Assembly: GCA_903928495.1 (NCBI GenBank)
Contig: CAIYQZ010000060.1
Span: 49,165-113,164 of the forward strand
Length of the DNA stretch: 64,000 nt
Reading direction: 5' to 3'
Source of the DNA: an uncultured bacterium
Lineage (GTDB): Bacteria > Pseudomonadota > Gammaproteobacteria > Burkholderiales > Burkholderiaceae_C
Shown here: one piece after another, positions 2,821 to 63,815 of the stretch
Position numbering within the stretch: the stretch's first letter is position 1
Layout of the letters: each line of letters opens with the position of its first letter
Notes under the pieces: generated by a model
Databases searched by the model: none
What the model was told of the DNA's origin: nothing
Seen by the model: the letters and a program-made list of their open reading frames with translations, nothing else
Translations under genes and position numbers: made by a program

Positions 2821-4512
2821 TCAGCCCCGGTACTTGCTGGTGATGGGGTAACGCCAGTCTTTGCCAAAGCTGCGGTGCGTCACCCGGATGCCCACCGGCG
2901 ACTGGCGGCGTTTGTATTCGTTCAGCCTGATCAGGCGGGTCACCTTGTCCACATCGGCCTGGGCGTAGCCAGCGGCGACTATTGCCGAGGGCTGCTCGTC
3001 GTTCTCCATGTAGCGCTGGATGATGGCGTCAAGTACCTCGTACTCGGGCAGGCTGTCCTGGTCTTTCTGGTCGGGGCGCAGTTCGGCGCTGGGCGGGCGG
3101 GTGATGATGCGCTCAGGGATCGGGTTGGTCCCCGTGCCATAGGGGTCGTTGGCATTGCGCCACCACGCCAGTTTGAACACCATGGTTTTCACCACGTCTT
3201 TGATGACGGCAAATCCACCCGCCATGTCGCCGTAGAGCGTGCAGTAGCCGGTGGCCATTTCGCTCTTGTTGCCGGTGGTCAGCACGATGCTGCCGAACTT
3301 GTTGCTCAAGGCCATGAGCAGCGTCCCACGGATGCGGGCCTGCAAGTTCTCTTCGGTCGTGTCTTCAGCCAGGCCCGCAAAGTCGGTGGCCAGGCTGGCC
3401 TTGAAGGCCTCGAATTCGGGTGCGATGTTGATTTCCTGATAGCGCACACCCAGTCGGGCTGCCATGTCGCGCGCGTCGATCCAACTGATGTCGGCCGTGT
3501 AGGGCGACGGCATCATCACCGCCCTCACCTTGTCAGCCCCCAGTGCGTCCACCGCAATGGCCAGCACCAGGGCCGAATCGATGCCGCCCGACAGCCCCAG
3601 CAGCGCGCCGGGGAAGCCGTTTTTGCCCACGTAGTCGCGTACGCCCAGCACCAGGGCGTGCCACAAATCGGCTTCCAGGCTGTGTTCAGCGGCCACAGGA
3701 CCTGATATTTGTGTAGCTAACTCATCAATATCGACGAGCGCTAGAGGCATATTTTCTTTAAAACTCTCAGCACGCAGCGCCACCGAGCCGTCGGCGTTCA
3801 GCGCGAAGCTGCGGCCCTCAAACACAATTTCATCTTGCCCACCCACCAGGTGGGCGTACACCAGCGGCAGGCCGGTGGCGGCCACGCGCTGGCGCATGGC
3901 GTCTTCGCGCTCACTGCCCTTGCCGGTGTGGAACGGCGACGCGTTGATGACCACCAGCGCCTGCGCCCCGTCCTGGCGGGCGGCTTCGGCGGGGCCGTCA
4001 AACCACGCGTCTTCGCAAATCAGCAGGCCGCAGCGCAGGACTTCACCTTCCGCATTCGGCACCTCGAACACGCAGGGCGACTGGCCCGGCGTGAAGTAGC
4101 GGCGCTCGTCGAACACCTGGTAGTTGGGCAATTCCTGCTTGGCGTAGGTGTGCAGCTTGTCGCCGTGCCGCAGCACGGTGGCAGCGTTGTACAGGCGGGG
4201 CACCGACACGCTGCGGGTGCGCACCGTGCCCCCGTCCAGCGACCGGGCCGGGTGCCCCACCACCAGCGTGAGGCCTGTCAACCCGGCGGTCCCCAAGGCC
4301 ACGTGTTCCAAGGCATCATCACAGGCATCCAGAAAGCCGGGGCGCAAAAACAGGTCTTCGGCGGCGTAGCCACACAGCGCGAGTTCGGGCGTCACCAGCA
4401 AGTCAGCCCCCTGGGCGTGCGCGGCGATGGCAGCGTCCACCACGCGGCGGGCGTTGCCGGCCAAATCACCCACCACAAAGTTCAACTGGGCCAGACAGAG
4501 TTTGAAGGTCAT
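2821..4512 (-). CDS. nadE: Glutamine-dependent NAD+ synthetase
   Basis: N-terminal nitrilase domain (FKLCLAQLNFVVGDLAGN...LLICEDAWFDG) and C-terminal synthetase (LLGLSGGIDSALV...TTGNKSEMATGYCTLYGDMAGGFAVIKD). Confidence 0.95.
   Translation of the reverse strand: MTFKLCLAQLNFVVGDLAGNARRVVDAAIAAHAQGADLLVTPELALCGYAAEDLFLRPGFLDACDDALEHVALGTAGLTGLTLVVGHPARSLDGGTVRTRSVSVPRLYNAATVLRHGDKLHTYAKQELPNYQVFDERRYFTPGQSPCVFEVPNAEGEVLRCGLLICEDAWFDGPAEAARQDGAQALVVINASPFHTGKGSEREDAMRQRVAATGLPLVYAHLVGGQDEIVFEGRSFALNADGSVALRAESFKENMPLALVDIDELATQISGPVAAEHSLEADLWHALVLGVRDYVGKNGFPGALLGLSGGIDSALVLAIAVDALGADKVRAVMMPSPYTADISWIDARDMAARLGVRYQEINIAPEFEAFKASLATDFAGLAEDTTEENLQARIRGTLLMALSNKFGSIVLTTGNKSEMATGYCTLYGDMAGGFAVIKDVVKTMVFKLAWWRNANDPYGTGTNPIPERIITRPPSAELRPDQKDQDSLPEYEVLDAIIQRYMENDEQPSAIVAAGYAQADVDKVTRLIRLNEYKRRQSPVGIRVTHRSFGKDWRYPITSKYRG
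3701..3763. repeat. Dispersed repeat copy inside nadE
   Basis: GATATTTGTGTAGCTaactcatcaatatcgacGAGCGCTAGAGGCATATTTT matches the AGCT...AAGCGCTAGAGGCTATTTTT layout seen elsewhere in the window. Confidence 0.55.
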
Positions 4513-5740
4513 GAAAACAAGTAATGAATGGGTGCAAAACGATTATGTCATCCGGGTTTTGGCCCACCCCGCTGAAGTGACAGCCGCGCAGTGGGCGTTG
4601 CTGCTTGCTGCAGAGGCAGATCAGGGGCGCGATGCCATGCCTTTCGTCACGCCCGAATACATGGCCGCCCTGCAAGACAGCGGCAGCGCCACACCGGCCA
4701 CTGGCTGGACCCTGCAACTGGTGACGGCGTGGCAAGGGTCTGCGCTCTGCGCGGCAGCTGCGCTGTACATCAAGCCCCATTCGTACGGGGAGTATGTGTT
4801 CGACTGGGCGTGGGCCGACGCTTACGCCCGCCACGGGCTGGCCTACTGCCCAAAGGCCGTGGTGGCAGTGCCTTTCACGCCCGTGCCCGGCCCGCGACTG
4901 CTGGCAGTGGATGCCACCGCCCGCCACGCACTGATGGCGGCACTGGTGCAAACCTGTGAAGTACAACACCTGTCTTCATTGCACATGCTGTTTGGCCACC
5001 CAGCCGACGTGGCTGCCGCCCATGCCGCCGGGCTGATGCTGCGGCATACCGTGCAGTTCCACTGGACCAACCGCACACCCGAGCCCTACCGGGACTTTGA
5101 CGACTTTCTGGCCAGCCTGAGCCAGGACAAGCGCAAGAAAATCCGGCAGGAACGCCGCAAAGTGGCCGATGCGGGCGTGCGCTTTCGCACGCTGGAAGGC
5201 CGCGCCATCACCGAGCAAGATTGGGACTTTTTTTACCGCTGCTACGAGCGCACCTATCTCGAACACGGCAACGCGCCGTATTTAAGCCGCGCCTTTTTTG
5301 CCCAACTGGCCGACACCCAGCCCGACAACTGGGTGCTGTTTGTGGCTGAAACCGACCACCCGGTGGCCTGCAGCTTGATAGCTACGAACTCAATACCATC
5401 AAGCGGTGAGGAACAAAAACACATCGAAACCGAGCCTCGCGTGGCCTATGGCCGCTACTGGGGTGCACTGGAGCGGGTGGACTGCCTGCACTTCGAGGCC
5501 TGCTACTACCAACCCCTTGCCTGGTGCATGGCCAACGGCTTTGACCGGTTTGAAGGGGGCGCGCAGGGAGAGCACAAAATGGCCCGTGCCCTCATGCCAG
5601 TGCAAACCACCAGTGCGCACTGGCTTGCCCACCCAGCCTTTGCCGACGCCATTGACCGCTACCTGCAGCGCGAGGGCGAAGGTATGGCGCAGTACATGAA
5701 TGAGCTGGAATCGCGATCGCCGTTTCGACGAGTGGGGTGA
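4511..5740 (+). CDS. GNAT/FemAB-like acyltransferase (peptidogalycan biosynthesis family, DUF482-like)
   Basis: HLSSLHMLFG...RHTVQFHWTNRTPEPYRDFDDFLASLSQDKRKKIRQERRKV...YGRYWGALERVDCLHFEACYYQPLAW; start chosen at 4511, overlapping the divergent nadE start. Confidence 0.85.
   Translation: MKTSNEWVQNDYVIRVLAHPAEVTAAQWALLLAAEADQGRDAMPFVTPEYMAALQDSGSATPATGWTLQLVTAWQGSALCAAAALYIKPHSYGEYVFDWAWADAYARHGLAYCPKAVVAVPFTPVPGPRLLAVDATARHALMAALVQTCEVQHLSSLHMLFGHPADVAAAHAAGLMLRHTVQFHWTNRTPEPYRDFDDFLASLSQDKRKKIRQERRKVADAGVRFRTLEGRAITEQDWDFFYRCYERTYLEHGNAPYLSRAFFAQLADTQPDNWVLFVAETDHPVACSLIATNSIPSSGEEQKHIETEPRVAYGRYWGALERVDCLHFEACYYQPLAWCMANGFDRFEGGAQGEHKMARALMPVQTTSAHWLAHPAFADAIDRYLQREGEGMAQYMNELESRSPFRRVG
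5372..5420. repeat. Dispersed repeat copy inside the FemAB/GNAT-like gene
   Basis: GCTTGATAGCTacgaactcaataCCATCAAGCGgtgAGGaacAAAAAC aligns with the 54041-54110 copy. Confidence 0.6.
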
Positions 5741-12765: not shown

Positions 12766-13299
12766 ATGCAACCCATGACCTTCTCCATCCCAAGCGCCCG
12801 AATCCTCCCTTTCCGCAGCCGTGTGCGCACAGCACGGCAGCTGGCGTGCGTGGCTGTGGTGTGGCTGGCACAAGCTCTGGCGGCGCCGCCAGCGCTTGCC
12901 CAGGCTGCCTCGGGTACACCGCAACTCAACCTGCCCCGCACCACGCTGCGACTGGGCATGTTCAACATCGACGTCCAGGTGGCGCAAACGCCGGAGCAGC
13001 GCTCCGTCGGGTTGATGTGGCGGCGTGGGATGCCCCAACACGAGGGCATGTTGTTCGTGTTCGAGCAACCAGCCGTGCAGTGCTTCTGGATGAAAAACAC
13101 ACCCAGCCCGCTGACCGCTGCGTTTGTGGCCGACGACGGCACGCTGGTCAACCTGGCCGACATGCAGCCCCTGAAGGAAGACAGCCATTGCTCGGCCAAG
13201 CCCGTGCGTTACGTGCTGGAAATGAACCAGGGTTGGTTTGCCAAACGCGGGTTTGCCGCTGGTGCCCGCATCGTGGGCAGCCCTTTTCAGGCCAAATAA
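12766..13299 (+). CDS. DUF192 domain-containing secreted protein
   Basis: FNIDVQVAQTPEQRSVGLMWRRGMPQHEGMLFVFEQPAVQCFWMKNTPSPLTAAFVADDGTLVNLADM with N-terminal signal peptide. Confidence 0.88.
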   Translation: MQPMTFSIPSARILPFRSRVRTARQLACVAVVWLAQALAAPPALAQAASGTPQLNLPRTTLRLGMFNIDVQVAQTPEQRSVGLMWRRGMPQHEGMLFVFEQPAVQCFWMKNTPSPLTAAFVADDGTLVNLADMQPLKEDSHCSAKPVRYVLEMNQGWFAKRGFAAGARIVGSPFQAK

Positions 13300-13300
13300 G

Positions 13301-13350
13301 TCATAGCAATCTATTGAATACAGAAAAGCGACATAGCCAAATTCCATTGA
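13301..13350. repeat. Possible degenerate copy of the dispersed repeat
   Basis: tcATAGCaatctattgaatacagaAAAGCGacatAGCCaAATTcc; weak match to AT(A/G)GCT...AAGCGCTAGAGCC. Confidence 0.3.
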
Positions 13351-13387
13351 AAAAGGCCGGAGCACCTCTCGGTGCTCTGGCCTTTTT
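13350..13387. terminator. Bidirectional rho-independent terminator between the DUF192 gene and sodB
   Basis: AAAAAGGCCGGAGCACC-TCTC-GGTGCTCTGGCCTTTTT inverted repeat with A and T tracts, between convergent genes. Confidence 0.88.
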
Positions 13388-13420: not shown

Positions 13421-14002
13421 TCAGGCGAAGTTGGCTTCGGCAAAAGACCAGTTCACCAGTTTGTCGAGGAAGGTCTCGACAAATTTGGGGCGCATGTTGC
13501 GGTAGTCGATGTAGTAGGCGTGTTCCCACACGTCCACGGTCAACAGCGCGGTGTCGCCGCTGGTCATGGGTGTGCCGGCCGCACCGGTGTTGACAATGTC
13601 GATGCTGCCGTCGGCCTTTTTCACCAGCCATGTCCAGCCGGAGCCGAAGTTGCCCACGGCGCTTTTCACAAACGCTTCTTTGAAGGCGGCGTAGCTGCCC
13701 CACTTGGCAGTGATGGCTGCGGCCAGTGCGCCGGTGGGTTCACCTCCACCGTTGGGCTTCATGCAGCTCCAGAAGAAGGTGTGGTTCCACACCTGTGCGG
13801 CGTTGTTGTAGATGCCGCCGCTGGCTTTCTTGATGATGGACTCCAGGTCCATGCTCTCGAACTCGGTGCCTTTTTGCAGGTTGTTGAGGTTGACCACGTA
13901 AGCGTTGTGGTGCTTGCCGTGGTGGAACTCCAGCGTTTCCTGGCTGTAGTGGGGGGCCAGCGCGTCGATGGCGTAGGGCAGTGCGGGCAGGGTGTGTTCC
14001 AT
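13421..14002 (-). CDS. sodB: Superoxide dismutase [Fe]
   Basis: [42 protein letters not shown]...[13 protein letters not shown]...[20 protein letters not shown]. Confidence 0.95.
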
Positions 14003-14085
14003 GGTGTTCCTATCGTGGGTGGTGAGTTGAAGCATACCGGCGTGAACCGTTCCGTCGCGCATTGTAGGAAGCGCGCAGAAAGTGT

Positions 14086-15369
14086 TCACACCACCTGCAA
14101 ATCGACCTCACCGTCAGCAAGGCTTGCGCGCAGTGCTTGGCCGCTGTGGGTCTGTGCAGCAAGGGTCACGGGCAGGCCCTGGTCGTTGCTCAGCCAGGCG
14201 TAGCCGCGTTGCAGCACCAGCCGGGGGTCGAGCGATGCCAGGGCCACCTCGGCCCGCGCCAGCCGCTGTGCCTCACGCTCAAACGCACGGGGAAATTTCT
14301 GAGTCAAATTGGCATCCAGCGCTTGATGTAATTGGCTTTGTTGCTGCATTTTATTGTGTACACACTGGCGCAGCCGAAAGCCCAGCTCCATCAGCCTCTG
14401 GTGCTGCTGCGACACCCGGTCTGACGGGCGAGCCATGCGCTGTGCCAGGCGATCGAGGCGCTGCGCCTGCGTGTCAAGGCGAGCGTGGGTGCCATCTTGC
14501 AGCCGTTGGTCGTACCAGGCCAGCAAGCCCAATGCCGTGGCCCGGTCGGTGGCACACAGTTCTGCCGCAGCGGTGGGCGTGGGTGCGCGCAGATCGGCCA
14601 CAAAGTCGGCAATCGTGAAATCGGTCTCATGGCCCACACCACACACCACGGGCATGGGTGCGGCGGCGATGGTGTGCGCCAAGGCCTCGTTGTTGAACGC
14701 CCACAGGTCTTCCAGTGAGCCTCCGCCCCGCACCAGCAGCAGCACCTCGGGTTGACCTGTTCGCTGGTGCTCGGCATACGCGGCCTGCAAAGCAGCACAG
14801 AGTTCAGCTGGCGCCTGAGCGCCCTGCACCGCTGCGGGGTACAAGGTCACCGGGATGTGTGGCACACGCCGCACCAAGGCTGTTGCCACATCTCGCAAGG
14901 CAGCCGCCCCCAAGGACGTGACCACACCAAGGGCACGAGGCATCGTCGGCACAGCGCGCTTGCGGGCCGGGTCGAACAGACCCTGGGCCTCCAGACGCAG
15001 CTTGAGTTGCATGAACTGCTCGAACAGGGTGCCCTGCCCCGCCTGTCGCATGCCCTCAACGATCAGCTGCAGATCGCCGCGCGGGCCGTAGACATCGAGC
15101 TTGCCCTGCACGTCCACCTGGTCACCATCGCGGGGGGAAAAGCCCAAACCCGTGGCTGCACGCCGGAACATGGCACAGCGAACCTGGCCTTCCGCGTCTT
15201 TCAAGGAGAAATAGCAATGCCCGCTGGCCGCTCGCGAGAAGCCCGATATCTCACCGCGCACCTGCACTGGGTTGAACCGCAACGCGAGCACGTCAGCCAC
15301 CGCGCGCATCAGGGGGCCAACGGCCCACACCGGGGCAGGTGCAGACCGTTCTGTGACAAAACCGTTCAT
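14086..15369 (-). CDS. xseA: Exodeoxyribonuclease VII large subunit
   Basis: [34 protein letters not shown]...[13 protein letters not shown]...[21 protein letters not shown]...[26 protein letters not shown]. Confidence 0.95.
14293..14352. repeat. Dispersed repeat copy inside xseA
   Basis: AAATTGGCATCCAGCGCTTGATGTAATTGGCTTTGTTGCTGCATTTTATT; its core is the reverse complement of CATCAAGCGCTGGATG at 54070. Confidence 0.6.
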
Positions 15370-15496
15370 GGCAACTTCCAAAAGGCGCTGCCCCTGTTTT
15401 TGGAGCAGTGTGTACAGGCCGGACAAGCCTCATGGGGGCACAGGTGTCCACAGCCAAGCGCTGGCGACGCGATTGCTTGCTTCAGAACCCGTAGCA

Positions 15497-15535
15497 CATG
15501 CAGGGGCTTGCAAGCTATTGTTTTTAAAGCATTTT
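15497..15535. repeat. Possible degenerate copy of the dispersed repeat upstream of xseA
   Basis: GTAGCACATGCAGGGGCTTGCAAGCTATTGTTTTTAAAG resembles the ...CTTG...AGCTATTNTTTTT end of the element. Confidence 0.3.
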
Positions 15536-16840: not shown

Positions 16841-17968
16841 GTGCAAGACCACCCTCCAGAACCCACGCAGCGCGCACACTGGCACGCACGCCTGTCCCAG
16901 GCTTGGCTGCGCCGTGGCTGGCTGGCACGCTTGCTGTGGCCCATCTCGCTTTTTTACGGGGCGTTGGCCCGCATGCGTTTCCTGGCCTATCGCCGGGGTT
17001 GGCTGGCCTCCACCCATCTGCCCGTGCCGGTGATCGTCGTGGGCAATGTAGTGGTGGGTGGCGCGGGAAAAACACCCACCGTGATCGCCGTTGTGCAGCA
17101 CCTGATGCGCCAGGGGCACCGCCCCGGCGTGGTGTCGCGTGGGCATGGACGCACATCGATTCGTGCCGGTGAACCGCTGCCCGACGTATTGGCCGTGTTG
17201 CCTGGCACGCCCCCACAGGCCAGTGGCGACGAACCCGCGTTGATTCAGCAGGCCACAGGGGTCCCCGTGTTTGTCGGCCGCTCCCGGGCTGACACCGGCC
17301 GCGCTCTGCTGGCAGCCCACCCCGACACCACTGTGCTGGTATGCGACGACGGCTTGCAGCACATGGCACTTCATGCTGACGTGGCGGTGGCCGTGTTTGA
17401 CGAGCGGGGCGTGGGCAACGGCTGGTTGTTGCCCGCCGGGCTCTTGCGGGAGCCATGGCCCCAGCCTGTGGGTCGGCGCGTGGACATGGTGCTGCACGCC
17501 CAGGCATCGCACGCTGGCAGCAACCGGCTGCCAACACCAGACGCCGTGCCGTGCTTTAGCGCCCTCAGACAACTGGCCGTTCATGCCACAGCGCTCGACG
17601 GCAGCACAGTGCCCCTGGACGCCTTGCCTCGGCAAGGCCTCACCGCATTGGCGGGCATTGCCAAGCCCCAGGCTTTTTTTGACATGCTCAGTGTGGCCGA
17701 GGTGAGCATCAGCCATCGGCTCCCTTTGGCTGATCACCAGGATTTTGATGTTTGGATCAATAGCAAAGAATTCAATATCATCAAGCGCCAGGGCATTGTT
17801 TGTACTGAAAAAGACGCCGTCAAGCTGTTCCCACTGCTGAGGTCAGCTTCGAACCCCAACGTCCCCATGTTGGCATGGAGCGTGCCGCTGGTGTTCACGC
17901 CGGAACCAGCCTTCTTCGACATGCTGGACGAAAAGCTATCATCCGCCCATGGACACCAAACTGCTTGA
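16841..17968 (+). CDS. lpxK: Tetraacyldisaccharide 4'-kinase
   Basis: [28 protein letters not shown]...DEPALI...[41 protein letters not shown]...[11 protein letters not shown] start inferred. Confidence 0.94.
17755..17801. repeat. Dispersed repeat copy inside lpxK
   Basis: GATCAATAGCaaagaattcaatatCATCAAGCGCCAGGGCATTGTTT matches ATAGC...CATCAAGCGCTAGAGGC(T/A)TTTTT. Confidence 0.5.
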
Positions 17969-25524: not shown

Positions 25525-27057
25525 GTGAACAAACGTATGTTTTCTGCATTTAAATGTGTCGGGATCGTCGGCGCAGGGGCCATGGGACGGGGCATAGCCC
25601 AAATCGCGGCACAGGGCGGGTGCGATGTGTGGTTGCTGGACGCCCAACCACAAGCCTTGTCTTCGGCCCTCGAACAGCTCCATGGGCAATGGGACAAACA
25701 GCTGGCCAAAGGCAAGCTGAATACACAACAAGTCTCAGATTGGAAAGCCCGGCTGAAAACCACCACCGAACTGGCCGGCCTGGCCACCTGTGACCTCGTG
25801 GTTGAAGCCATCGTTGAGAACCTGGAGGTGAAGCGCCAGCTCATGCGCGACCTGGATGGACTGCTGCCCGCCGACGCAGTGCTGGCCAGCAACACATCGT
25901 CACTGTCCATCACAGCCATTGCGGCCGGCCTGCCTGGCGAGGCGCGGCTGGCAGGTTTTCACTTTTTCAACCCTGTGCCGCTGATGAAAGTGGTGGAAGT
26001 GGTACCAGGCCTGAACACGCACCCCGATGTGGTGCAGCGCCTGTGTGCGCAGGCACGCGCCATGGGCCACACGCCCGTGGTGACCAAAGACACCCCAGGC
26101 TTCATCGTCAACCACGCCGGTCGCGGCTTTGTGACCGAAGCCCTGCAACTGGTGAACGAAGGCGTGGCCGTCTTCGAGACCACCGACGCCATATTGAAAG
26201 ACCAGGCCGGCTTCAAGTTGGGCCCGTTCGAATTGATGGACTTGACCGGTCTGGACGTTTCGCACCCGGTGATGGTGGCCGTTCACCAGCAATACTTTGG
26301 CGAGCCGCGCTACAAACCCAGCGTCATCACCGCGCAGCGGCTGGCCGGGGGCGTGCTGGGCCGGAAAACGGGGCGGGGCTTTTACACCTACACCGATGGA
26401 CAGCGCCCTGCCCGCTTCGACCCGGCTGCCCCGGTGGTAGACACCCTGCCCCCGGTTTGGGTCAGCCCCAAAGCAGCCCGTCGCGCCGAGCTGTACCAGC
26501 TGCTCAAAGACCTGGGTGCACGCATTGAAACGGCGGCGAATCCGTCGGAGCAAGCGCTGATCTTGGTTGCACCCTTGGGTCTGGACGTGAGCACCATTGC
26601 GGCGGTGGAGCGTCTGGACGCGACGCGGACACTGGGCATCGACCTGATGCTGCCCGACACCGCCACCCGTCGCCGGGTGCTGGCCACCAACCCCGCCACC
26701 CGCGCCGACATGCGCGACGCGGCCTGGGCCCTGTTTGCACGAGACGGCAAAGCCGTTAGCGTGGTGCGCGACAGCGGTGGTTTTGTGACCCAGCGGGTGC
26801 TGGCACACATCGTCAACATTGCGTCTGACATGTGCCAGCAAGGCATTTGCACCCCTACCGACCTGGACACCGCCGTGACCCTGGGCTTGGGCTACCCCCA
26901 CGGCCCGCTGGCCTGGGGCGACCTGATGGGGCCCACCAACGTGCTGGAGGTGCTATTCAACCTGCAAACCGTGTATGGCGACACGCGCTACCGCCCCTCC
27001 CCCTGGCTGCGCCGACGTGGGGCGCTGGGCCTCAGCCTGACGCAGCCTGAACTCTGA
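25525..27057 (+). CDS. 3-hydroxyacyl-CoA dehydrogenase (PaaH-like)
   Basis: VGIVGAGAMGRGIAQIAAQGGCDVWLLD...SNTSSLSITAIAAGL...AGFHFFNPVPLMKVVEVVPG...TPGFIVNHAGRGF; second C-terminal domain. Confidence 0.93.
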   Translation: MNKRMFSAFKCVGIVGAGAMGRGIAQIAAQGGCDVWLLDAQPQALSSALEQLHGQWDKQLAKGKLNTQQVSDWKARLKTTTELAGLATCDLVVEAIVENLEVKRQLMRDLDGLLPADAVLASNTSSLSITAIAAGLPGEARLAGFHFFNPVPLMKVVEVVPGLNTHPDVVQRLCAQARAMGHTPVVTKDTPGFIVNHAGRGFVTEALQLVNEGVAVFETTDAILKDQAGFKLGPFELMDLTGLDVSHPVMVAVHQQYFGEPRYKPSVITAQRLAGGVLGRKTGRGFYTYTDGQRPARFDPAAPVVDTLPPVWVSPKAARRAELYQLLKDLGARIETAANPSEQALILVAPLGLDVSTIAAVERLDATRTLGIDLMLPDTATRRRVLATNPATRADMRDAAWALFARDGKAVSVVRDSGGFVTQRVLAHIVNIASDMCQQGICTPTDLDTAVTLGLGYPHGPLAWGDLMGPTNVLEVLFNLQTVYGDTRYRPSPWLRRRGALGLSLTQPEL

Positions 27058-29023: not shown

Positions 29024-29088
29024 CAGTTTTCAATACTTTTTTGGCATCCAGCGCTTGTCAGTCAAGCGATGACAGCTACACATTCAAA
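29024..29088. repeat. Dispersed repeat copy, intergenic
   Basis: TTTTCAATACTTTTTTGGCATCCAGCGCTTGtcagtCAAGCGATGACAGCTACA, palindromic core. Confidence 0.7.
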
Positions 29089-29102: not shown

Positions 29103-30362
<1,260 letters not shown>

Positions 30363-33943: not shown

Positions 33944-34091
33944 GGGGTTACTCCTTTCGGGTAGCTGTTGAACATGGCCATGATGGTGCCGGGCAGGCCG
34001 CTGCCTTGGGTGTCGGTCCGGTAGCGGTTTATGTCGTTTTGTTTCATTCGGCCGCCAAGCACGATGGCGCTGCCGCAACACCACACGAAAG

Positions 34092-34146
34092 TGAAGCTAC
34101 AAACCCACGCCGGATAAGCGCTGGAGGCTAAAAATACTTGAAAATG
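34092..34146. repeat. Dispersed repeat copy, intergenic
   Basis: GAAGCTACAAACCCACGCCGGATAAGCGCTGGAGGCTAAAAATACTTGAAAAT. Confidence 0.65.
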
Positions 34147-34154
34147 TCAGCACC

Positions 34155-35438
34155 ATGACACAGCCCCCCATCCACATGCAGCCCAGCAACCTGACCCCGC
34201 CCCAGGTTGTGGTGCTGGGCGCAGGCATGTTGGGCGTGTGCACTGCGTTGCACCTGCAGGCGCGGGGGGTGCAGGTGGCGCTGATCGACAGGCGCGGGCC
34301 TGGGGAGGAAACGTCGCACGGCAATGCAGGTGTCATACAGCAGGAAGCCGTTTCGCCCTACGCGTTCCCGTTTGACGCCGCAACGCTGTTGGCCACGGCT
34401 TTGCGCCGGGGGGTGGACATCCACTGGCAAGCCGCTGCCATGCCACGGCTGCTGCCCTATCTGTTGCGTTATGCATGGCACTCGCTGCCAAGACACCATG
34501 CAGCCATCACCCTGGCGTACAGCCGACTGGTGGCACATGCCACCGCAGAACACCAGCCCCTGATAGAAGCGGCCGGCGCACAACACCTGGTGACGAGGCG
34601 GGGTTTCCGGTTTGGCTACCGCACGCTGCAGGCGCTGGACAAAGCCCTTGCCAACGCACACCGGGTACATGCCACACACGGTGTGCCGTTTGAGGTGGCA
34701 GACGCTGCGGCACTGTCTCAGGCCGAGCCCGCCTTGCGACCTGGCACGCTGGCGGGTGCCCTGCACTTCACCAGTTCCTGGAGCGTGAGTGACCCTGGTG
34801 GGCTGGTTGCGCTGTACGCCAAGCTGTTTGAGCAGCGCGGCGGCACTGTGTTGCAAGGTGATGCGCTCACCCTGGAGGCCCACGCCAGCGGGTGGCGCGT
34901 GCGCACCCACGGCGGTTGGGTGGGCGCACCGCAGGCCGTGGTGGCGCTGGGGCCATGGTCGGGCAACCTGATGCAGCGCCTGGGTTGCGCACTGCCGCTG
35001 TTTGTCAAGCGCGGTTACCACCAACACCATGCAGCGCCACAAGGCTTGGCCTTGCCACTGCTGGATGCCGAACGCGGCTACGTGCTGGCGCCCATGCGCA
35101 AAGGCCTGCGGCTGACCACCGGCGCAGAGCTGGCGCGGCTGGATTCACCCACCAACCCCGTTCAATTGGGCCGGGCACAAGCCTGCGCCCGCGAACTGCT
35201 GGACCTGGGTCCCGAGGTTGACAGCGAACCTTGGCTGGGCAACCGGCCCTGCATGGTTGACATGTTGCCGGTCATGGGCCCGGTGGCGCGGCACCCCGGC
35301 CTGTGGTTCAACTTTGGCCATGGCCACCAGGGCTTCACGCTGGGCCCGGTGTCGGGCCGGCTGCTGGCGGAGCAACTCACGGGCAGGCCCACGGTGGTGG
35401 ACCCTGCGCCGTACCGGCCCGCACGTTTCGGGGTGTAG
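34155..35438 (+). CDS. FAD-dependent oxidoreductase (D-amino-acid dehydrogenase/DadA-like)
   Basis: VVVLGAGMLGVCTALHLQARGVQVALIDRRGPGEETSHGNAGVIQ...WLGNRPCMVDMLPVMGPVARHPGLWFNFGHGHQGFTLGPVSGRLLAE. Confidence 0.9.
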   Translation: MTQPPIHMQPSNLTPPQVVVLGAGMLGVCTALHLQARGVQVALIDRRGPGEETSHGNAGVIQQEAVSPYAFPFDAATLLATALRRGVDIHWQAAAMPRLLPYLLRYAWHSLPRHHAAITLAYSRLVAHATAEHQPLIEAAGAQHLVTRRGFRFGYRTLQALDKALANAHRVHATHGVPFEVADAAALSQAEPALRPGTLAGALHFTSSWSVSDPGGLVALYAKLFEQRGGTVLQGDALTLEAHASGWRVRTHGGWVGAPQAVVALGPWSGNLMQRLGCALPLFVKRGYHQHHAAPQGLALPLLDAERGYVLAPMRKGLRLTTGAELARLDSPTNPVQLGRAQACARELLDLGPEVDSEPWLGNRPCMVDMLPVMGPVARHPGLWFNFGHGHQGFTLGPVSGRLLAEQLTGRPTVVDPAPYRPARFGV

Positions 35439-38686: not shown

Positions 38687-39544
<858 letters not shown>

Positions 39545-53345: not shown

Positions 53346-54029
53346 TCAGTCGATGTAGCGGAAGCCCGCTTTTTCAAGACCGGGGCGCATGTTGTACATG
53401 TCGAGCCCCAGCACGCCAGCGGCGAATTTGGCGCGTTTTTCGCCTTCAAAGCTTTCGCGCTTGGTGGCGGCGGCAAACACCTCCACGGCTTTGGCAGCGG
53501 GCACCACCACCACGCCGTCGTCGTCGGCCACCACCACATCGCCCGGCGTGACCAGCATGCCGGCGCACACCACCGGAATGTTGACCGAGCCCAGTGTGGC
53601 CTTGATGCAGCCTTTGGCGCTGATGGTTTTGCTCCACACGGGGAAGTTCATTTCCTGCAAGGTTTTCACGTCGCGCACACCCGCGTCGATGATGAGGGCG
53701 CGGGCACCCCGGGCCTGAAAGCTGGTGGCCAGCAGGTCGCCAAAGTAGCCGTCGGTGCACTCAGCAGTGACTGCGGCCACCACCACATCACCGGGCTGAA
53801 TTTGCTCGGCAGCCACATGCAACATCCAGTTGTCACCTGGTTGCAGCAGCACAGTCACCGCTGTGCCCGACACCTGTTGCCCCCCAAAAATGGGGCGCAT
53901 GTAGGGCTTGAGCAGGCCCACGCGGCCCATGGCCTCGTGCACGGTGGCGCTGCCCAATGCGGCCATGCCATCGGCAGCGGCGCGGTCGGCGCGGGTGATG
54001 TTGCGGTAACAAACGCCCAGTTCAAACAT
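53346..54029 (-). CDS. ligK: 4-carboxy-4-hydroxy-2-oxoadipate aldolase/oxaloacetate decarboxylase
   Basis: [94 protein letters not shown]. Confidence 0.93.
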
Positions 54030-54040
54030 GACAAGAACTC

Positions 54041-54110
54041 CGATAAAAATATAGCTCCCAGTGCTTATCCATCAAGCGCTGGATGTCTAAAAGGCTTAAA
54101 AATACGAATC
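54041..54110. repeat. Dispersed repeat copy, intergenic; best-preserved palindrome
   Basis: CGATAAAAATATAGCTCCCAGTGCTTATCCATCAAGCGCTGGATGTCTAAAAGGCTTAAAAATACGAATC. Confidence 0.72.
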
Positions 54111-55161
54111 AAAGACCTTTGGCCTTCAAACGGGCGTCCAGGCGGCTGAACACGCGGCGGGCGTTGCCCTCGTACACCTGGTGCCGCTGGGCATCGGTGA
54201 GGTTGCCGGTGGCTTGCACGTAGCGCTTGGTGTCGTCGAAGTAGTTGCCGGTGTCGGGGTCAATGCCGCGCACGGCGCCGATCATTTCGCTGGCAAACAG
54301 GATGTTCTCCACCGGTATCACCTTGGTCAGCAGGTCGATGCCGGGCTGGTGGTACACGCAGGTGTCAAAAAACACATTGCCCAGCAGGTGGTCTTTCAGC
54401 AGAGGCTTTTTCAGCTCTTGTGCCAGGCCACGGTAGCGGCCCCAGTGGTAGGGCGCAGCACCGCCGCCGTGGGGCACGATGAACTTCAGCGTGGGGAAGT
54501 CTTTGAACAGGTCGCCCTGAATGAGCTGCATCACGGCTGTGGTGTCGGCGTTGATGTAGTGCGCGCCAGTGGTGTGAAAGCAGGCGTTGCAACTGGTGCT
54601 CACATGAATCATGGCGGGAATGTCGTACTCCACCATTTTTTCGTAAATGGGGTACCAGGCCTTGTCGGTCAGAGGGGGAGAAGTCCAGTGGCCGCCGCTG
54701 GGGTCGGGGTTGAGGTTGATACCCACGTTGCCAAACTGCTCCACGCACTTCACCAGTTCGGGGATGCAGGTGGCGGGGTCCACACCGGGGCTTTGGGGCA
54801 GCATGGCTGCGGGGACAAAGTGGTCGGGGAACAACTGGCTGACGCGAAAGCACAGCTCGTTGCAAATGGCGGCCCAGGTGCTGCTCACCTCAAAGTCGCC
54901 AATGTGGTGGGCCATGAAGCTCGCGCGCGGGCTGAAGATGGTGATGTCAGAGCCGCGCTCTTTCATCAAGCGCAGCTGGTTGGTTTCAATGGTTTCGCGC
55001 AGCTCGTCGTCTGAAATTTTCAGGTCAGCGACTTTGGGCTTGAGCGCCGGGTCTTTGATGCCCGCCACTTGCTGGTTGCGCCAGGCTTCAAGCGACTTGG
55101 GTGCGGTGGTGTAGTGGCCGTGGCAATCGATGATGAGGGGGGAGCCGTTGGTTTTGGGCAT
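54109..55161 (-). CDS. ligJ: 4-oxalomesaconate hydratase (amidohydrolase family)
   Basis: LIIDCHGHYTTAPKSLEAWRNQQ...FFDTCVYHQPGIDLLTKVIPVENILFASEMIGAVRGIDPDTGNYFDDTKRY. Confidence 0.93.
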   Translation of the reverse strand: MPKTNGSPLIIDCHGHYTTAPKSLEAWRNQQVAGIKDPALKPKVADLKISDDELRETIETNQLRLMKERGSDITIFSPRASFMAHHIGDFEVSSTWAAICNELCFRVSQLFPDHFVPAAMLPQSPGVDPATCIPELVKCVEQFGNVGINLNPDPSGGHWTSPPLTDKAWYPIYEKMVEYDIPAMIHVSTSCNACFHTTGAHYINADTTAVMQLIQGDLFKDFPTLKFIVPHGGGAAPYHWGRYRGLAQELKKPLLKDHLLGNVFFDTCVYHQPGIDLLTKVIPVENILFASEMIGAVRGIDPDTGNYFDDTKRYVQATGNLTDAQRHQVYEGNARRVFSRLDARLKAKGL

Positions 55162-56023: not shown

Positions 56024-56941
56024 ATGGACTTCAAACAAATCGAGGGTTTTGTGCGCGTGGCCGAGCTGGGCAGCTTCACCCGCGCCGCGCAAATGCTCAA
56101 CACCACGCAGCCCGCGCTATCGCGCCTCATCCGCATGCTGGAGGTGGACCTGCATCAAACCCTGCTGGTGCGCAACGGCCGGGGCGCCGTGCCCACCGAG
56201 GCTGGACAGGTATTACTGGCACACGGTCGGGGCATCTTGCACCAGGTGCAGCGGGCCCGGGAAGATTTGGGCACCGTGCGCGGCGGCTTGTCGGGCCAGG
56301 TGGCCATTGGCCTGCCGCCCAGTCTGGCGCGGGTGTTCACCGTGCCGTTGACCCGCGCGTTTCGCGCCCAGTTGCCCGATGCCAGCTTGTCCATCAGCGA
56401 GGGGCTGAGCACCCAAATGCAAGAGTGGCTGGTGAACGGACGGCTGGACATTGCCGTGCTCTACAACGCCCGCGCCAGCGCGGACATTGAGATCAGCCCC
56501 TTGGGCGACGAAGACCTGTGGCTGGTGCAAGCACGCCAGCCCGGCCTGGCCGAAGACCCACCGCCCGGCCCCATCGACCTGAAAGACGTGGCCGAGCTGC
56601 AACTGGTCATGCCCAGCCGCCCCAACGCCATCCGCACGCATGTGGAAACCGAAATGGCGCAAATTGGCTGCCGCTTGAAAGTGACGCTGGAAATTGACGG
56701 CGTGGCCGCCATCCTCGACCTGGTGGCCGACGGCGCAGGTGCCGCCCTGCTGTCGCGCAACGCGGTGGCCAGTTGCATACGCCCCAGCGCCTACCTGGTG
56801 CGCGCCGTGCGCAACCCGCCGCTGAGCACCCGGCTGTTTCTGGCCACCAGTTCCATGCGGCCCACCACCCGCACCCAGCAAACCACGCTGGCGCTGATTC
56901 GGCAGACGCTGGCGGTTGCGTTGGAAGACACAGCTGCATGA
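56024..56941 (+). CDS. LysR family transcriptional regulator
   Basis: MDFKQIEGFVRVAELGSFTRAAQMLNTTQPALSRLIRMLEVDLHQTLLVRNGRGAVPTEAGQVLLAHGRGIL. Confidence 0.95.
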   Translation: MDFKQIEGFVRVAELGSFTRAAQMLNTTQPALSRLIRMLEVDLHQTLLVRNGRGAVPTEAGQVLLAHGRGILHQVQRAREDLGTVRGGLSGQVAIGLPPSLARVFTVPLTRAFRAQLPDASLSISEGLSTQMQEWLVNGRLDIAVLYNARASADIEISPLGDEDLWLVQARQPGLAEDPPPGPIDLKDVAELQLVMPSRPNAIRTHVETEMAQIGCRLKVTLEIDGVAAILDLVADGAGAALLSRNAVASCIRPSAYLVRAVRNPPLSTRLFLATSSMRPTTRTQQTTLALIRQTLAVALEDTAA

Positions 56942-57600
56942 GCGTGGCCAGCCAACCCGCCCCTGCCAGCGCCCTGCCCCTGCTGTATTCCTTCCGCCGG
57001 TGCCCGTACGCCATCCGCGCACGGTTGGCGCTGGCCCAGGCAGGTGCAGCGGTGAGCACGGTGGAAGTGGATTTGAAGCACAAACCCGCCGCGCTGCTGG
57101 CCGCGTCCCCTGCAGGCACTGTGCCCGTGCTGGTGCTGCCCGGTGGCGAGGTGTTGGCCCAAAGCCTGGACATCATGCGCTGGGCTCTGGCGCAGCACGA
57201 TCCGGCAGGCTGGCTGCGGACCGAGCCGAATTGTGATGAAGAATTTTGGATCAAAAGCACCGACAGCGCTTTCAAGCATTGGCTTGACCGCTACAAGTAT
57301 TTCGAGCGCCACCCCGCCCACCCGCAAACCCATTACCGCCAGCAGGCCATTGACTGCCTGCTCGGCCCCCTGGAACAAGCCCTCGTCACCCACGGCCCTT
57401 GGCTGGGTGGCACACAACCGGTACTGGCCGATGCGGCTGTGTTCCCCTTTGTGCGCCAGTTTGCGGGGGTGGAGCCCGCCTGGTGGGCCGCCAGCCCCTT
57501 GCCTGCCACCCGCGCCTGGTTGAACGCCTGGGTGGAAAGCCCGCTGTTCAAGAGCGTGATGCAAAAGCCCGCCTCTCAAACAGCCAATGGCCATGGCTGA
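56938..57600 (+). CDS. Glutathione S-transferase family protein
   Basis: LPLLYSFRRCPYAIRARLALAQAGAAVSTVEVDLKHKPAALLAASPAGTVPVLVLPGGEVLAQSLDIMRWAL; ATGA overlap with LysR stop. Confidence 0.92.
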   Translation: MSVASQPAPASALPLLYSFRRCPYAIRARLALAQAGAAVSTVEVDLKHKPAALLAASPAGTVPVLVLPGGEVLAQSLDIMRWALAQHDPAGWLRTEPNCDEEFWIKSTDSAFKHWLDRYKYFERHPAHPQTHYRQQAIDCLLGPLEQALVTHGPWLGGTQPVLADAAVFPFVRQFAGVEPAWWAASPLPATRAWLNAWVESPLFKSVMQKPASQTANGHG

Positions 57601-62942: not shown

Positions 62943-63815
62943 TTATGAATCAAGACCATTTGCCATCTGTCCCGCACGGCGGGCTATGCAGGTGGCAATG
63001 GTTGCCTTATTGAAGTTCATAGCAACAAAGCTAATTTCTAAAAGCGCCGTTGGTCTTTTTTGTCCAGATTTTTGGCAAGGTAAGCGCTTGTTGTTCAGGC
63101 GATACGTGTTCTGGCCGAGCACATTCCCGGATTGGTGCTTCTCTTTGCGCGTGACCAGCGCCTGCAGCATGGCGGCACGGTCGGTGTACCAGTTGTCGCT
63201 GTAAGTGGGTTGTTTGCTGGTGTCGCCGTACAGGCGGGCGTTCTTATCGGCGTTCCAGTCGGCGTACAGGCTGGGGTGGGCGGTTTGCAGAACGGCGGTG
63301 GCCGCCGCGTTGCTGCCGGTGCTCAGCACCACGGGGCTTAAACCGTGCAGGCTCAGGAAGGCGCCAAAGTCGGCCTTGGCCGTGCTGGCCAGGGCGGCGC
63401 TGGCCACGCTGAGAGTGACGGCGCCGCTGGTGGCCAGTGCTTGGAACGCAACATTGGTGTTGCTCTGCAGCTCATTCAGGCGGCTGTAAAGCGCTTGATC
63501 GTTCCCCGTGGCAAGCAGGGTGGCATTGGCGTTCAAAACCCGGTCCACGCTGTAGATCAGGCTCTCCAGCGCGTTGGCGCTTTGGTTGCTGGCGACCATG
63601 AACATGCGGTTGGCCGTTTGCAGGTAAAGCTGCGGACTCAACTTGCTCAGCATGGCAAACACGGCCAAAGACTGGCTGATGCGGCTGACGGAATGGTTGC
63701 CAAGGCCCGGTGCGGGAGCGGGCTCAATTTCCACGGGAATGGTGGTGCCCAGCTGCGAGCCTGTACCGGCAATCAGCGAAAGCCCTACCGATCCGCGCAA
63801 TCCATGCACTTGCAT
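62943..63815 (-). pseudogene. Probable fragment of a large repetitive/surface-type protein gene
   Basis: Low-complexity segment followed by a basic/Cys tail (NNKRLPCQKSGQKRPTALLEISFVAMNFNKATIATC) that does not look coding. Confidence 0.5.

Follow-up and report, generated by a model that had tools for sequence, protein, structure and literature searches.

A dispersed, evenly spaced motif in Comamonadaceae genomes with likeness to DNA uptake sequences

Published accounts describe DNA uptake sequences as unique to the Neisseriaceae (DUS, as in Neisseria) and the Pasteurellaceae (USS, as in Haemophilus), and copies of both types are reported from DNA replication and repair genes. Their counts run from hundreds to several thousand (PMC5031613). 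The USS exist as a Hin type, AAGTGCGGT, and an Apl type, ACAAGCGGT; in both, the core is followed on its 3' side by two A/T-rich segments (PMC1626085). Regular spacing has been published for USS as well as for DUS (PMC1626085). For the Neisseriaceae, concerted differences between lineages have been described as dialects (PMC3630211).

We analysed a 64-kb stretch of bacterial DNA, here called the window (G000:C60:49165-113164), from an assembly of 3.79 Mb in 79 contigs, in which an A/T-rich motif of about 55 nt recurs at a density of about one copy per 6.4 kb. Like the USS, this motif is dispersed on both strands, in coding and non-coding DNA, more regularly than at random; its core is followed by two A/T tracts, it has lineage dialects, at least one copy appears to have arisen by substitution, and the 8-mer CAAGCGGT of the Apl core is found within one motif variant. 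It differs from the USS, which occur once per kb, in its length and density, in an extra RTAGC block about two helical turns upstream, in a GC-rich stretch between core and A/T tract, in a looser consensus, in having some copies with indels, in belonging to another bacterial class and in a function that is putative. With the DUS it shares dialects between related species, a betaproteobacterial host, a preference for permissive places (PMC3630211) and, in Acidovorax-type genomes, inverted pairs able to form stem-loops. However, the DUS is unrelated in sequence, is 12 nt long, has no A/T tracts and is present in about 1900 copies per genome (PMC3630211), and its receptor ComP is known, whereas here a receptor is only proposed.

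Three further families of repeats share some features with the motif. Rickettsia palindromic elements also lie in the ORFs of ordinary enzymes and are read in frame (PMC10969869), but they are insertions of about 150 bp, whereas our motif is about a third of that length, mostly non-palindromic in this genome and in at least one case apparently present without insertion. BRE are dispersed in Comamonadaceae too, with some copies in coding sequences; those of Bordetella measure 75-91 bp, have about 69% G+C, are often in tandem and number at most 29 per genome (PMC3110155). Set against that published description, the motif is A/T-rich, shorter, about 20 times more frequent and never separated by less than 680 bp, and composition and size exclude identity with BRE. 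REP/REPIN sequences with their RAYT genes are likewise short dispersed repeats that form hairpins in some genera, but the motif has no GTAG tag, no RAYT gene adjoining its copies and an even spacing.

Copies and architecture of the motif

A profile seeded with 30 copies and iterated to a refined version of 56 columns gave 184 matches at E ≤ 1 in 1.24 Mb of the genome, or 183 once overlaps were merged, from which we estimate about 560 copies per 3.79 Mb. A second-order Markov shuffle of the genome sequence gave no match at the same threshold. The first-pass annotation of this DNA had proposed a dispersed repeat family and had named a profile search without enrichment over shuffled genome sequence as a refutation; with 184 matches against none (183 copies per 1.24 Mb), the family is real. 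An earlier, shorter model gave a concordant picture, with no matches at E ≤ 1 in reversed sequence, and a simple pattern matched 116 times against once in the backward control. Counts of 8-mers under a maximum-order Markov model were uninformative, because the longer motif carries 8-mers along. No near-identical recent copies were seen among the 183, and exact copies of a consensus 19-mer are fewer in this genome than copies with one or two mismatches.

Eleven copies were accepted in the window with the refined profile (Table 1). All seven main places listed in the first-pass annotation match it (E from 1e-5 to 1e-8); as for the weaker candidates, the one at 13301 also matches (E=0.002), the one at 15497-15535 is not a member, and three copies had been missed, at 38733-38788 (-), 57242-57297 (-) and 63016-63071 (+). 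The element had also been described as encoding no protein, but four of the seven main copies lie inside conserved genes, for NAD synthetase, a FemAB-like protein, exonuclease VII and LpxK, and are translated in frame. The NAD synthetase copy (3710..3765) falls in the linker between CN_hydrolase and NAD_synthase, with an open antisense reading. The copy at 29027..29082 is among the few with a CGCTT/AAGCG inverted arm, and the orthologous place in the congener G118 is without the element. An Rfam search of the window returned no match.

Table 1 Copies of the motif accepted in the window, with the parts and setting of the focal copy.
Feature	Position	Strand	E-value	Remarks
Focal copy	54048..54103	+	9e-7	Element at same place in G154, G155, G151, G118
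Focal copy, blocks	RTAGC 54051-54055; CAAGCG 54073-54078; A/T tracts 54089-54092, 54100-54102			
Focal copy, setting	79-base gap			Between RraA-like gene (53346-54029 -) and amidohydrolase gene (54109-55161 -); neighbours by Pfam
Copy in glutamine-dependent NAD synthetase gene (2821-4512 -)	3710..3765	+	9e-8	Host by Pfam
Copy in FemAB-like gene (4532-5740 +)	5375..5430	+	1e-5	Peptide SLIATNSIPSSGEEQKHIE
Weaker copy between 12766-13299 (+) and 13421-14062 (-)	13300..13355	+	0.002	
Copy in exonuclease VII large subunit gene (14086-15426 -)	14295..14350	-	1e-8	Coding-strand reading; host by Pfam
Copy in lpxK (16841-17968 +)	17757..17812	+	3e-6	Host by Pfam
Copy upstream of acyl-CoA dehydrogenase gene (29103-30362 +)	29027..29082	-	5e-7	
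Copy immediately upstream of DAO-family FAD oxidoreductase gene (34155-35438 +)	34090..34145	+	1e-6	
Weaker copy near 3' end of gene 38687-39544 (-)	38733..38788	-	0.009	Orthologous element in G118
Weaker copy in gene 56938-57600 (+)	57242..57297	-	0.001	
Weakest accepted copy, in gene 62943-63815 (-)	63016..63071	+	0.04	

The block layout is rigid, RTAGC-N17-CAAGCG-N10-A/T tract-N7-A/T tract. In the profile, RTAGC occupies columns 4-8 and CAAGCG columns 26-31, followed by N-YR-GAGGC up to column 39, by A/T at columns 42-45, where most copies have A or T and either letter is allowed, and by an A/T-rich end at columns 53-56. The loose stretch between RTAGC and CAAGCG often reads AAAANNCAATACCATC in this genome, and indels are absent from the motif core. 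A CGCTT-type arm facing AAGCG is present in only 18 of the 183 copies and no tested arm pair covaries in this genome, so the palindrome is not the conserved feature here. The outer stem shows weak covariation in five other genomes (P ~0.02-0.08 per pair) and the inverted arm is regular in Acidovorax-type relatives; for this genome the initial description as palindromic is wrong, and the exact inverted motif as first written barely exceeds chance in the window (3 against 0.36 expected). In Acidovorax sp. MR-S7 conservation extends over positions -8 to +54, has crisp edges and covers a hairpin-forming version, its 5' arm GCGCTTG being inverted to CAAGCGC, with a small upstream hairpin, RCTAY-n7-RTAGC. 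On another contig of our genome (C61, ~26533-26571), two overlapping copies on opposite strands make a long near-perfect palindrome, GGCACCCAGCGCTTGACAGTCAAGCGCTGGGTGCC-like, which resembles inverted DUS pairs.

Placement, spacing and change at orthologous sites

Gene classes were assigned with a simple gene caller of our own, according to which 87% of the DNA is coding. Of the 183 copies, 70 lie in genes and 52 straddle a gene end; the other 61 are intergenic, and given the coding fraction this means that intergenic DNA is strongly preferred. The reading frames of in-gene copies are uneven (22/21/10/7/5/5), with two frames favoured (~8e-5 against uniform, chi-square), and where a stop codon would result such copies are altered, for example with GAGC or CAGC for TAGC, or TAGCAA for TAGCTGA. 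Through Pfam matches or alignments with solved homologues we recognised the following hosts: NAD synthetase, the FemAB-like protein, exonuclease VII, LpxK, GlmU, Tex, MurG, AroE, MltG and IleRS. Several in-gene copies lie in replication or repair genes, namely xseA and those which we take, from their translations, to be polA, dnaX, uvrD and rarA. No promoter-like placement was seen, with copies at all positions within housekeeping genes. Since either orientation occurs throughout genes, a promoter-like reading of the reverse strand was dropped.

The two orientations reported at first pass are confirmed, with 97 copies on the plus and 86 on the minus strand and no bias. Gaps between copies average 6.4 kb with a coefficient of variation (CV) of 0.63, against 0.98 for random placement (2.5-97.5%: 0.85-1.12), and none of 2000 random placements was as low (P<0.0005). 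Another 2000 placements that kept the gene or intergenic class of each copy gave a CV of 0.945 with a minimum of 0.77, all above the observed value. Gaps shorter than 1 kb make up 2.9%, against 14% at random, and none is below 680 bp. The same holds in 360 kb of G118 (CV 0.67 against 0.96, P=0.0005). The evenness is kept at stricter cut-offs down to 123 copies and is not significant with the 71 best copies only (P=0.13). Even spacing of this kind does not result from independent insertions.

In order to compare orthologous sites, we aligned 35 copies to G118, a congener about 80% identical, regardless of motif retention, and 32 were comparable. Identity is kept in 29-30 of these sites for AGC, in 27-32 for AAGCG and in 28 of 30 for columns 43-44, against roughly half for columns 10-25 and 64% for the flanks. 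The early suggestion of a conserved structural or regulatory site therefore holds in part, in that species about 80% identical retain the blocks at their orthologous places. Of the A/T bases that changed in columns 42-45, 8 were replaced by A or T and 4 by another base, compared with 18 and 42 in control columns. The stretch after the core has shifted in concert, with the blocks kept, from YRGA here to AAAA in G118: in columns 33-36, A is the outcome in 39 of 47 cases where a non-A base changed, compared with 65 of 147 in columns 10-25. G118 thus has a consensus of its own, AAGCGYAAAAGGC; at E ≤ 1, 400 kb yield 63 copies and a shuffle yields none. Decaying transposon copies would not change together.

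The focal copy has counterparts at the same place in G154 (97% identical there), G155, G151 and G118, where the sequence flanking the element has diverged. In G118 and G151 (loci L060 and L055), the region that corresponds to window positions 54030-54110 has a long G+C-rich repeat with GGCGGCGGGGTGTCCGCG-like sequence adjoining the motif, and this repeat may be the published BRE (PMC3110155). Two genes with a TGATG overlap in our genome (C48:123931-123955) have the motif between them in G154 (L194:15399-15437), and in that operon the downstream gene appears to have its start displaced by it.

The published criterion of substitution against gap, used for USS (PMC1626085), was applied to copies inside genes. 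In congeners the mltG copy of this genome can be recognised as variants. The 23 relatives that align over the motif are equal in length except for one outgroup, in which the additional residues fall outside it. Since length around the motif is equal in family members and outgroups, the alignment plainly indicates that this copy arose by substitution, without a gap. There are no added residues in murG and ileS relative to solved homologues, about three in nadE (against 4f4h) and five in aroE (against its solved homologue). Indels also contribute in tolerant places, because the FemAB-like protein, GlmU and Tex have 13-22 extra residues in loops at the motif (13-16 in the FemAB-like protein relative to family members without it) and because two intergenic copies (C48:132236 and C60:78207) are missing as whole elements in G118. 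In these few examples the empty places show no target-site duplication by eye, and the consensus has no terminal repeats.

A putative uptake sequence and rival explanations

We give a probability of about 0.5 to the reading that the motif works like a DNA uptake sequence. By analogy, such a function is suggested by what matches USS and DUS: a dispersed copy number, regular spacing without orientation bias, coding and non-coding copies in preferred and tolerated frames, dialects, an apparent origin by substitution in at least one copy, A/T tracts after a GCG core and the presence of competence genes. What the motif does not share is a very strong consensus, with perfect copies outnumbering those with single mismatches. 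Because this feature is missing, the consensus is looser and the uptake role is one that we infer, we do not file the motif as USS or DUS. To the fuller proposal of a third, independently evolved family of uptake sequences, in the Comamonadaceae, with a composite site (RTAGC, CAAGCG and two A/T tracts) and genus-level dialects that change within one genus, we lend slightly less than even belief.

Under this proposal, the motif in free DNA would be bound by a receptor that belongs to the competence machinery and, on the model of ComP, is probably a type IV minor pilin; this would favour the uptake of kin DNA. Recombination of the preferentially imported DNA would seed, maintain and space the sites in intergenic DNA and tolerant gene parts, and if the receptor's preference changed, every site would be drawn towards a new dialect. 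We infer the uptake machinery to be the recogniser and transformation the driver of the pattern. Of competence genes, the genome carries one for ComEC and one for an exported HHH protein resembling ComEA; both are widespread, and their presence is not discriminating. Verminephrobacter, which belongs to the Comamonadaceae (PMC3110155), is reported to undergo natural transformation that shows signs of sequence specificity (PMC4212676).

The best rival is that the copies are sites of a sequence-specific chromosomal protein, acting in nucleoid organisation, nucleoid occlusion, segregation or global regulation, which co-evolved with them. Even spacing and lineage-specific dialects could fit a chromosome-organising protein too, as could blocks conserved at orthologous places and A/T tracts that stay A or T. 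However, a shift of hundreds of sites within one genus is hard to obtain under site-by-site selection and natural for a driven sequence, placement is not promoter-like, copies being at all positions in housekeeping genes, and no candidate protein was identified here. We consider this explanation unlikely.

Ranking after it, and more doubtful still, is an old mobile palindromic element, of REP/MITE or Rickettsia type, which would have inserted in and between genes and then decayed. High copy number, a long consensus, the crisp-edged hairpin version (-8 to +54) in MR-S7, in-frame extra peptides in FemAB, GlmU and Tex, and whole-element presence or absence at two orthologous places speak for it, but it sits poorly with the even spacing, the concerted change of orthologous copies, the apparent substitution origin in mltG, the absent or small length change in murG, ileS, nadE and aroE, the lack of near-identical recent copies among the 183 or of a transposase beside copies, and the absence of exact-pattern matches in viral contigs. 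The overly even spacing, concerted dialect change and gap-free mltG copy leave the MITE or REP-like element of the first-pass annotation without support, as does the viral-contig result, and they also led us, with the unchanged lengths of several other proteins, to abandon an earlier working idea of a Rickettsia-type palindrome inserted in frame. A check for the REP-type transposase envisaged at first pass found one such gene in the genome, a weak Y1_Tnp candidate of RAYT type (L031:1450-2187(+), contig C77; 245 aa, 27 bits), whose 3-kb locus has only a partial profile match (E=0.03); as this lone candidate is not flanked by good copies, a RAYT-driven REP was rejected.

An RNA hairpin in transcripts, serving as a terminator, RNA stability or translation element, is very improbable, for inverted arms in other genera, weak outer-stem covariation and, in G155, a single focal-locus change that looks compensatory stand against most copies of this genome lacking the 5' arm, no tested pair covarying, no Rfam match in the window, many copies lying antisense inside genes and the absence of a T run after the hairpin on either strand, for which a transcription terminator was rejected.

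Distribution and consequences

The motif was counted across genomes with a dialect-free pattern defined by block spacing alone (backward controls 0-4), which matched 288 times in our genome, 347 in G118, 471 in G016 and 353 in Acidovorax sp. MR-S7 (G137). At least 20 matches were found in about two dozen sampled genomes of the family and 0-2 in most others; outside the Comamonadaceae only single matches were seen in the order. The motif is confined to some Comamonadaceae genera, and the first-pass annotation was right to place similar repeats in this family: named carriers include Acidovorax, Simplicispira, Giesbergeria, Comamonas, Diaphorobacter, Extensimonas, Oryzisolibacter and Rhodoferax. 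No member was found with the exact pattern in 2.9 million viral contigs, and a literature search gave nothing relevant on uptake sequences in Comamonadaceae or Acidovorax, nor on REP-type repeats in these genera.

In Acidovorax sp. MR-S7 an integron-type cassette array (G137:C33, L207, 725-9414) has the motif in five cassettes, and ORFs across the array match Pfam DUF1010 (PF06231); the observation also covers L379 2834-3151. Because these ORFs run across motif-bearing cassettes, part of DUF1010 appears to be an antisense reading of motif plus cassette spacer, and not a conserved protein. The same DUF1010/motif segment adjoins known cassettes on clinical plasmids, which suggests that the segment is of Comamonadaceae origin.

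With more than a third of its copies in genes, those of housekeeping enzymes included, the motif shapes protein sequences. If the uptake-sequence reading is true, a third case, in environmental bacteria, would turn the co-evolution of specificity and tag, and the question of drive versus selection, into comparative tests, since species of a single genus here differ in dialect. Should a chromosomal protein be the recogniser, the motif would expose a hitherto unknown organiser of the genome, whose hundreds of sites are evenly spaced.
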